From NCBI RefSeq assembly GCF_024171815.1, contig NZ_JAMTCJ010000001.1, positions 496,001 to 560,000 on the forward strand: a DNA stretch of 64,000 nucleotides, written 5' to 3'. This DNA comes from Williamsia maris. GTDB taxonomy: Bacteria > Actinomycetota > Actinomycetes > Mycobacteriales > Mycobacteriaceae. Of the stretch, positions 24,163 through 64,000 are shown piece after piece; the stretch's first letter is position 1, and the number at the start of each line of letters is the position of its first letter. Position numbers and translations under genes: made by a program. The notes beneath the pieces were generated by a model. That model saw nothing but the letters and a program-made list of their open reading frames with translations. It was not told the origin of the DNA and made no database searches.

Positions 24163-24477
24163 GTGGAGCACCCCGACGCCGATCAGCCGATCGACCTGAG
24201 CCAGTACAACCTGTCGTCCGAGGTCGACGACCTCCCGGACGAGATCGACGATCTCCGCAGCGAGATCGATCGGCTCGACGCGATCATCCTCGGCGCCATC
24301 AAACGGCGCACCGCAGTGTCGAAGAAGGTGGGGCGCACGCGGATGGCCTCTGGCGGACCGCGCCTGGTCCACAGCCGCGAGATGAAGGTCCTGCAGCGCT
24401 TCTCCGAACTCGGCCAGGAGGGCCACACCCTCGCGATGCTCCTGCTCCGACTGGGCCGCGGACCACTCGGTCGATGA
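24163..24477 (+). CDS. Intracellular AroQ-type chorismate mutase
   Basis: 104 residues of the short all-helical AroQ-delta type. DEIDDLRSEIDRLDAIILGAIKRRTAVSKKVGRTRMASGG-type helix 1 and loop are followed by RLVHSREMK and a C-terminal LLLRLGRGPLGR, close to M. tuberculosis Rv0948c. It turns chorismate into prephenate for Phe/Tyr. The mycobacterial enzyme is weak alone and is activated by binding DAHP synthase through its C-terminal RLGRG tail, which is preserved here. Start is GTG 24163; no clear ribosome site. The sulfatase ATG overlaps its stop (ATGA), so the sulfatase is probably cotranscribed. Confidence 0.93.
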   Translation: MEHPDADQPIDLSQYNLSSEVDDLPDEIDDLRSEIDRLDAIILGAIKRRTAVSKKVGRTRMASGGPRLVHSREMKVLQRFSELGQEGHTLAMLLLRLGRGPLGR

Positions 24478-62578: not shown

Positions 62579-63475
62579 GTGGAGATGCATCACCTGCGGT
62601 ACTTCCTGGCCGTCGCCCGCGAACTGAACTTCACGCGTGCGGCGCGGTCGCTGAACATGTCGGTGCCACCGCTCAGCCAGCGCATCCGGACGCTCGAGCA
62701 CGAACTCGGAACTCCCCTGTTCGAGCGGTCGACCCACCACACCAAGCTGACCCCCGCGGGCGAGGCACTGCTGCCGCTCGCGTGGTCGGTGGTGGCCGAC
62801 TTCGACGCCATACCCACCCTCATCGGTCCGGACGTCGGGCGCGCCGACGTCCGTCTCGCCGTCCCCGACGTCCTCAACCCCCGACACCGTCGTGCGCTGA
62901 CCGAGGCGATCCGCGGCCTCGACGCGTCGTTCTCGTTCACCATCCGACAGATGCCGTCGCTGCAGATGGAGTCGGCGCTGCTCAGCAGTTCCATCGACAT
63001 CGCCATCGCGCACGTGGGCACCACGAACGAGCGGTTGTCGACCCGGGTGCTCTACAGCGAGCCGCTCGGCGCCGTCGTCGACGTAACCCGGTTCCCCGAC
63101 CGGACGTCGCTGTCGATGGGCGACCTGCGCGGGCTGCGCTACATCCAGGGCCCGCGTCACTGGGATCTGGGCGCCGGACGCACCGATCGACTGGCCGCCG
63201 CGGGCGCGGTCGTCGATGCCGACGCGAGCTTCACCGACATCAGCGGGTTGCTCTTGTTCCTGCGCAGCACAGCGGCGTTCACGATCGTGCCGTTGGAGTC
63301 GGAGGCGGTGCTGTCGGTGGACCGCACGGAGTACGCGGTGCTGCCGGTCGACGACATGGACGAGTCGTTGACGACGTATCTGGTGCGCCGTGTCGCCGAC
63401 ACCTGGCTCGATCCGGTCGTCACCGTCCTCGGTCGTACCCACCAAGACCCCGACCCCCACCAGTTGGGCACGTAA
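62579..63475 (+). CDS. LysR-family transcriptional regulator of the CoA-transferase operon
   Basis: 298 residues. MHHLRYFLAVARELNFTRAARSLNMSVPPLSQRIRTLEHELG is the LysR helix-turn-helix, followed by a substrate-binding effector domain (VRLAVPDVLNPRHRRALTEAI, DIAIAHVG, YIQGPRHWDLG). Divergent from the acyl-CoA operon, hence its probable activator. GTG 62579 is chosen: TACGCT ends 8 nt upstream. The last residues, HQLGT, and the stop lie inside the first copy of the 14-bp repeat array, so the repeat has shaped the protein end. Confidence 0.9.
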   Translation: MEMHHLRYFLAVARELNFTRAARSLNMSVPPLSQRIRTLEHELGTPLFERSTHHTKLTPAGEALLPLAWSVVADFDAIPTLIGPDVGRADVRLAVPDVLNPRHRRALTEAIRGLDASFSFTIRQMPSLQMESALLSSSIDIAIAHVGTTNERLSTRVLYSEPLGAVVDVTRFPDRTSLSMGDLRGLRYIQGPRHWDLGAGRTDRLAAAGAVVDADASFTDISGLLLFLRSTAAFTIVPLESEAVLSVDRTEYAVLPVDDMDESLTTYLVRRVADTWLDPVVTVLGRTHQDPDPHQLGT

Positions 63476-63612
63476 ACACCCCCAGTTGGGCACGTAGACA
63501 CGCCAGTTGGGCACGTAAGTCCGTTGGTTGGGCAGTTGATGCCCAATCAGCGCACTTACGTGCCCAACTGATGGAAGTACGTGCCCAACTGACGGATGTA
63601 CGTGCCCAACTG
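63461..63612. repeat. Phased inverted-repeat array (CAGTTGGGCACGTA, 8 elements)
   Basis: Three direct copies of CAGTTGGGCACGTA (63461-63474, 63483-63496, 63504-63517), a degenerate central pair TTGGGCA-GTTGA-TGCCCAA (63528-63546), then three exact complement copies (63557-63570, 63578-63591, 63599-63612). Neighbours are 21 or 22 bp apart, two helical turns, and the whole set is symmetric about ~63537. It fills the space between the LysR stop and the lipase stop. Copies are identical although the intervening bases differ, indicating selection or recent spread. No known repeat family recognised. Confidence 0.92.
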
Positions 63613-63617
63613 GGGTA

Positions 63618-64000
63618 TCAGCGCGAGCAGGTGGAGGGCGCGGGTTCGCCGGCGAAGCGGTCGCCGATCCAGGAGATCGCGCTCGGTGTCAGCCCGGTGT
63701 TGGTGTGGCCCTTGCCCTGCGCCACCGACACCGACAGCGTGTCGCCCATCGCGCAGGCCCGTCGGACGGCCGCGGCGGTCCACGCCGGGGTGATGATCTG
63801 GTCGGCGTCGCCGTACCCGACGAACAGGGGTCCGGCCGAACGCCGTTGCGGCAGTGAGTCGACGAGCAGCATGTCGTGGAGTCGTCGCAGCGCGCCGGCC
63901 GACGCGATGGTCGCGTCACCCGGCTGGACCTTGGTGATGGCGGAGAACTTGCGGAACGAGCTCCCCGGTCCGCAGGACGTCAGGTCGGATGCCCCGGCCG
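63618..64000 (-). CDS. Secretory lipase (LIP family), C-terminal part
   Basis: The 5' end lies beyond the window; the visible 126 codons stay open to position 64000. The C-terminus LFVGYGDADQIITPAWTAAAVRRACAMGDTLSVSVAQGKGHTN contains the catalytic Asp (GDAD) and His (GKGHTN) of secretory alpha/beta-hydrolase lipases. Two Cys (CAMG, PSTC) fit a secreted, disulfide-bonded protein. The stop is 6 nt from the repeat array. Substrate would be an extracellular ester or triacylglycerol. The serine nucleophile is off the end. Confidence 0.8.
   Translation of the reverse strand, partial: AGASDLTSCGPGSSFRKFSAITKVQPGDATIASAGALRRLHDMLLVDSLPQRRSAGPLFVGYGDADQIITPAWTAAAVRRACAMGDTLSVSVAQGKGHTNTGLTPSAISWIGDRFAGEPAPSTCSR

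Follow-up and report, generated by a model that had tools for sequence, protein, structure and literature searches.

Why should a symmetric array of eight repeated units lie exactly where two convergent genes meet? The array in question occupies positions 63461-63612 of the window, the whole stretch of 64,000 nucleotides of Williamsia maris DNA analysed here, with a LysR-family gene on one side and a convergent gene for a secretory lipase on the other. With some reserve, we lean towards reading it as a solo copy of a repeat family that belongs to a nuclease-driven system, a cassette in which a nuclease gene is framed by arrays of this kind. Judged from sequence, it would belong as a solo site to the nuclease copy encoded some 0.54 Mb away, at C1:1102377.

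The array and the genes around it

Six exact copies of the 14-mer CAGTTGGGCACGTA, starting at 63461, 63483 and 63504 on the plus strand and at 63557, 63578 and 63599 on the minus strand, flank two degenerate central copies, a symmetric layout already described by the first-pass annotation of this DNA. The features of the locus are as follows.

62579..63475, plus strand: LysR-family regulator gene (Pfam HTH_1, E 3.7e-24, and LysR_substrate; open-reading-frame table and gene caller)
63461..63474, plus strand: array unit 1, exact CAGTTGGGCACGTA; contains the LysR stop
63483..63496, plus strand: array unit 2, exact; 22 bp after unit 1
63504..63517, plus strand: array unit 3, exact
63525..63538, plus strand: degenerate central unit TGGTTGGGCAGTTG
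63536..63549, minus strand: degenerate central unit TGATTGGGCATCAA
63557..63570, minus strand: array unit, exact
63578..63591, minus strand: array unit, exact
63599..63612, minus strand: array unit, exact; 6 bp from the lipase stop codon
63618..64000, minus strand: convergent secretory-lipase gene, 3' part; runs past the window (whole gene L038:4619-5854; Pfam LIP, E 2.2e-17)

The central plus and minus units share three overlapping bases. The annotation had given the phase as 21 bp and the spacing as 21-22 bp; more exactly, the first interval is 22 bp and the others are 21 bp. Also borne out was the proposal that the array encodes the end of the LysR protein, since unit 1 supplies the stop codon TAA (63473-63475) and the terminal residues QLGT. 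At the same site in two relatives, G003 and G005, a TGA is seen by eye ahead of the array, and the array-encoded tail therefore looks recent in the window genome. The lipase stop codon (63618-63620, minus strand) follows 6 bp beyond the last unit.

At up to three mismatches, CAGTTGGGCACGTA has 12 matches in the window, compared with a mean of 3.74 in 100 shuffled sequences (largest 10; none reached 12). A motif-free scan of the whole window at lag 21 returned both halves of the array and one other stretch, 24204-24277, which scores 31 of 42 and is not of the array type. The paired arrangement found in the window folds strongly as RNA (z of -13.0 and -11.2). No DNA match to positions 63440-63640 was found in plasmids and phages.

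A dispersed repeat family

Genome searches used the reversed unit sequence as a control. In the window genome (G000, Williamsia, 4.9 Mb), CAGTTGGGCACGTA has 69 exact copies versus none for the control, spread over 27 loci, and 143 versus 40 matches at up to two mismatches. This genome-wide search, which had been proposed as a check, thus yielded a phased family and no unphased scatter of the 14-mer. The exact 14-mer is present in four of the eight genomes of the genus and has a single match in each of 2 of 143 other genomes of the family. By a looser test, three TGGGC cores spaced at 21 bp, all eight genomes of the genus are rich in matches (58 to 143; controls 0 to 8). Outside the genus, such triples abound in G256 (198 versus 0 in the control), G235 (55 versus 0), G120 (26 versus 1), G093 (24 versus 1), and G227 (23 versus 0). 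At least one triple occurs in 113 of 301 genomes, many of them at control level.

For the analysis of gene context, all exact-copy loci were taken for G000 and G002, and array regions were sampled elsewhere: at least 12 in G003 (one contig), 8 of the 13 array places listed in G005, 18 in G006, 22 in G256, and 20 in G301, the framing locus L336 among the last. Gene limits came from our own simple gene caller and not from annotation. Several contigs (C27, C38, C94, C152, and C167 of G005; C45 of G002) end in an array or no more than a few hundred bases from one, and short-read assemblies are therefore probably broken by arrays. At L042 (4162-4375) the array is open in one frame and encodes a repeated SWARKPA-like peptide; in such a case gene callers could mistake an array for a protein extension.

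Spacing, stop codons and helical register

The family has three characteristic features: (i) in 109 half-arrays from four genomes, 228 of 231 spacings are 21 bp, (ii) the 14-bp core hardly changes and most positions of the 7-bp spacers between units vary, and (iii) arrays run in the sense of the adjoining gene and mostly begin a few bases past its stop codon. A same-sense stop codon lies within 400 bp upstream of 94 half-arrays, with position +6 as the commonest start of the first unit, and the next gene is convergent for 78. To control for direction, gene stops within 30 bp were counted on either side of 129 arrays: 91 arrays have one on the 5' side and 25 on the 3' side (3 and 3 of 10 in G005 alone). 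The adjoining genes are ordinary ones, such as those for glutaredoxin, GMP synthase, MscL, and pyruvate carboxylase. Among the 37 array genes of G000, 36 were covered by one Pfam scan and the LysR gene separately; three have no Pfam family.

Where two arrays face each other, the gaps between the last core of one and the first of the other cluster at -15, 7, 17, 28, and 39 bp and near these values (40 pairs). For the 33 gaps below 60 bp, the Rayleigh R at 10.5 bp is 0.887, a value reached by 0 of 5000 uniform nulls, and the best period is 10.75 bp; R is 0.791 for all 40. Quantisation at about 10.5 bp suggests that binding takes place on a single face of the DNA. The two halves thus keep a single rotational register, which an RNA element would not need. 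Gordonia G256 offers three facing pairs for the same comparison; in Nocardioides G301 the partners are mostly single degenerate units, too few good pairs for phasing.

The annotation had offered two functions for the array, a platform for several protein dimers or a large cruciform. The former gains from the spacing, from spacers that vary around a kept core, and from the helical gaps. The latter finds no support as a common function, because many arrays carry units in one orientation only. On two grounds, one-orientation arrays and gaps that follow the helix, the RNA-element reading was set aside together with the cruciform.

Composite arrays and conservation of array places

Other unit types join the same arrays in register, type A lying beside the gene and type B or C beyond it. 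From the gene outward, 100 arrays, 29 of them composite, contain 19 transitions from A to B, 8 from A to C, 2 from B to A, and none from C to A; composite places common to several species are not independent events. Units were assigned to the nearest type at up to 4 mismatches of 14, and some C calls, including the central unit of the window array, are degenerate A units. In arrays that begin with type A, the mean mismatch to A rises from 0.52 in the first unit to 3.87 in the last.

The same place can hold different types in different relatives. The window site has type A in G000 and G003 and type B in G005, and no array was seen in the stretch read in G001, G004, G006, and G007; in G002 the contig ends 107 bases past the lipase match, so no call was made. 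An oxidoreductase site has type A in G000 and G002 and type B in G003, with G005 mostly masked there. The number of units at one place also varies between relatives. Regions that align to an array region of G000 make up 10 of 12 in G003, 5 of 8 in G005, and 10 of 20 in G002. Arrays are thus kept in the same places, contrary to the absence of conservation in close relatives that would have spoken against the proposed array.

A nuclease gene framed by inverted arrays

One gene of the window genome, with matches to MTES_1575 and DUF559, lies between two facing arrays, and relatives of it adjoin arrays in Gordonia araii and in further Williamsia. The framed protein matches MTES_1575, DUF559 and, weakly, AbiEi_1 in Pfam; by fold it resembles homing endonuclease/Vsr proteins of the EDxHD kind and AbiEi. 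The best Foldseek match of its model is PDB 1zel (Rv2827c of Mycobacterium tuberculosis, E 6.7e-4). Putative EDxHD/Vsr-like catalytic residues are conserved in the framed proteins. A sequence search of solved structures with one framed protein gave nothing up to E 1. NCBIfam has no family for two of three framed-type proteins and gives the third two weak, sub-cut-off matches to large anti-phage proteins. Plasmids had no match to the nuclease at E 1e-20; a single weak match in phages covers 61% of the protein at 30% identity, and 0 of 53 pattern matches in viral contigs were confirmed.

Profile A1, built from eight proteins, was run against 29 genomes picked with their TGGGC counts known. A close subfamily (E 1e-80 or better) is present in 19, and 10 have distant paralogs only (E 3e-33 or weaker). 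The best subfamily loci (L163-L181) have lag-21 arrays on both sides in 16 cases and on one side in 3, and the distant-paralog loci (L182-L191) have none in 9 cases and a marginal signal in 1. A protein-similarity scan of a named genome collection gave 80 loci. Since profile A1 came from loci found beside arrays, framing is quoted without its six sources: the other 74 loci have phased arrays on both sides in 47 cases, on one side in 15, and on neither in 12, the last including L268, where arrays are visible and the gene limits are misplaced. For all 110 distinct loci the counts are 66, 22, and 22. Corresponding signals were obtained at 1 of 33 other genes of the same loci and in 0 of 321 Markov flanks. 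Nine loci with profile scores below 100 have no two-sided framing, and two of them show a one-sided signal at another lag.

Where both sides carry arrays, the periods are 21/21 at 35 loci, 22/22 at 25, 52/52 at one, and unequal at five; all 61 equal-period loci are inverted. In Nocardioides, as in a clade of Williamsia, 22 bp is the usual period. Longer-period repeats also lie beside some nuclease relatives (52 bp on both sides of L245; upstream, 31 bp at L288 and 33 bp at L290), and the periods of 31 and 52 bp are close to three and five helical turns.

Framed cassettes lie between convergent genes. At profile scores of at least 250, a neighbour's stop lies near 31 of 44 arrays upstream of the gene and 38 of 41 downstream of it; for scores of 100 to 250, the counts are 22 of 32 and 30 of 35. 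In Gordonia G256, the strand homologous in sense has a stop within 400 bp for 18 of 29 arrays. In one genome, the duplicated segment consists of array, gene, and array. At the one cassette locus whose neighbours were annotated, these encode a transporter and a peptidase and no AbiEii toxin; an apparent hairpin between the stop of the transporter gene and the array was noted by eye.

Nuclease copies and the units that frame them

At C1:83937 the window genome has a second nuclease copy, whose framing units are GTTGGGCCCT; this unit has 41 matches in the genome versus 1 in the control, five of them at the framing locus. The third copy (L194, G000:C2:61000-68000) and its relatives at L198 and L202 are framed by 22-bp arrays whose unit contains CGACCGTGCCCTAATCACCCGC. 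In Nocardioides acrostichi, dispersal of the unit framing its gene was predicted beforehand, and 152 genome matches were found versus 1 in the control. Across the 20 Nocardioides regions, 53 of 54 spacings are 22 bp, and a same-sense stop lies within 400 bp upstream of 22 of 25 arrays, most commonly at position +3; the stop-codon rule therefore holds with another motif and another period. Divergence of the framing motif follows divergence of the protein (Mantel r 0.52 and 0.48; 0/2000 each).

A proposed nuclease-driven system and its alternatives

Most simply explained, cassettes and solo arrays are parts of one system, whose protein would bind its own unit. A cassette consists of an array, a gene fusing an AbiEi-like module to an EDxHD/Vsr-like nuclease, and an inverted array, placed between convergent genes with the arrays at or near their stops. 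The protein would bind each asymmetric unit. Because the units lie two helical turns apart, bound copies would align on one face of the DNA, touching along the array and across its centre. The nuclease may act at cassette and solo arrays and drive break-induced copying, by homing-like spread or gene conversion. Arrays would thereby reach gene ends, be renewed from the stop-codon side, and track changes in protein specificity. What we observe of this scheme is the repeats with their phase and polarity, the stop-codon rule, the inverted framing, the conserved putative catalytic residues, and one duplicated cassette; binding, cutting, and nuclease-driven spreading are what we infer.

Several results weigh against this account. 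Array places are common to genomes of large divergence (those of G002 at 75-84% identity), which a host function would fit too, and all 13 cassette pairs of at least 90% identity share a flanking gene, so that cassettes are mostly stable. Simple insertion would leave array starts so near to stop codons unexplained. Shared descent contributes to the Mantel result. G120 (genus g11), rich in TGGGC triples, has only a distant nuclease relative (E 3e-33) with no array there, and may hold a more divergent partner. Conversely, a close nuclease accompanies few triples in G044 (0), G129 (1), G219 (2), G151 (3), and G108 (7); the nuclease loci of these five genomes are framed by other units. 

The best of the alternatives, a host gene-boundary element, is in our view unlikely, though it has substantial points in its favour. 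A phased protein array past the stop would block transcription from the neighbour or end the gene's own transcript, and the framed protein would be a domesticated binder. Two genera whose motifs and periods are unrelated both place arrays in sense after the stop, which agrees with such a role, as do the frequently convergent next gene and the different array types held at the window site by relatives; the long-lived places and the stable high-identity copies support it as well. A boundary element, however, has no need of conserved putative catalytic residues or of a duplicated array-gene-array segment, the exact units occur at few loci of a 4.9-Mb genome and on ordinary genes, and the cassette-side transporter gene apparently already has its hairpin. 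We favour spreading by the nuclease because its gene is framed, its putative catalytic residues are conserved, and a cassette has been duplicated.

A defence or conflict system, with a nuclease directed at foreign DNA and with arrays in the chromosome that retain or inhibit it or serve as marks of self, seems improbable. It would suit the AbiEi-like and nuclease modules and the weak similarity of one relative to anti-phage proteins, but it leaves the stop-codon rule and the framing unexplained, and no positive evidence for it was found, PADLOC not having been searched. Slightly less credible still is an ordinary transposon inserting between convergent genes, with arrays as its ends or non-autonomous copies and the nuclease gene as cargo. 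Inverted arrays round a gene and solo paired arrays do resemble an element and its deletion derivatives; however, the framed gene in several genera is this nuclease, one-sided arrays are common, and no transposase family occurs among the annotated array-side genes (36 array genes and 3 inner genes). Passive slippage, which would suit the differing unit numbers at one place, can practically be dismissed, as it is already contradicted by the core and register kept while spacers vary, by the joining of different unit types in register, and by the framing of one protein family by inverted arrays.

Comparison with known systems

The closest parallel to the nuclease cassette is provided by repetitive extragenic palindromic elements and their associated tyrosine transposases (REP/RAYT). 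In the published account (PMC2817692), an enzyme gene is flanked by two inverted copies of a dispersed extragenic repeat, and several repeat families are tied to several enzyme copies. Here too a nuclease gene lies between inverted repeats, and the repeat is dispersed both in the window genome and in Nocardioides. The differences are threefold: (i) the enzyme is AbiEi-like and EDxHD/Vsr-like and not a tyrosine transposase of the IS200/IS605 type (Pfam Transposase_17), (ii) the units are non-palindromic, CAGTTGGGCACGTA being no palindrome, whereas a REP is one with a GT(A/G)G head, and (iii) the units form helix-phased direct arrays of 21 or 22 bp in gene sense at stop codons. The system thus works like REP/RAYT, yet on enzyme and palindrome it falls outside that group. 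Because the two share their logic, a stricter view could place it within the REP/RAYT kind as a variant.

Nuclease fold and conserved putative catalytic positions are shared with EDxHD/Vsr-like homing endonucleases; unlike that of I-Bth0305I, the gene is free-standing, fused to an AbiEi-like part, and framed by multi-copy dispersed arrays. AbiEi antitoxins of type IV toxin-antitoxin systems differ in that the present protein has its own nuclease domain and, at the annotated locus, no AbiEii toxin neighbour. Mycobacteriophage stoperators are phage repressor sites, asymmetric and in one orientation relative to transcription; the units resemble them in asymmetry and orientation and differ in forming helix-phased arrays with a framed nuclease. 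The 7-bp spacers are unlike the long unique spacers of a clustered regularly interspaced short palindromic repeat (CRISPR) array. Insertion sequences and miniature inverted-repeat transposable elements have terminal inverted repeats with target-site duplications; the arrays at the ends of the cassettes are inverted.

Among the matches listed in a search of open-licence literature, no paper joined DUF559/MTES_1575 to repeat arrays. Tentatively, and with less confidence than we have in our reading of the window array, we suggest that these elements may form an undescribed actinobacterial class: a homing-endonuclease-like protein with its own sequence-specific, helix-phased stop-codon array, renewed from the stop side so that younger unit types adjoin the gene and older ones lie farther out, forming a rotationally locked assembly between convergent genes, with protein and unit changing together and with paralogs each owning an array family. 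Its novelty would lie in an enzyme unrelated to that of REP/RAYT, in arrays that are helix-phased and non-palindromic, and in the stop-codon rule.

For many members, a protein family of unknown function (AbiEi-like with DUF559/MTES_1575) is hereby linked to a DNA target readable from the genome. The family offers natural pairs of protein and site that vary together, with a repeat spacing apparently fixed by the helix and, where arrays meet the ends of genes, a fresh side that is defined. If the nuclease does spread the arrays, it would be a second, unrelated solution to the task of REP/RAYT; if the host uses them, they would be a new kind of gene boundary.
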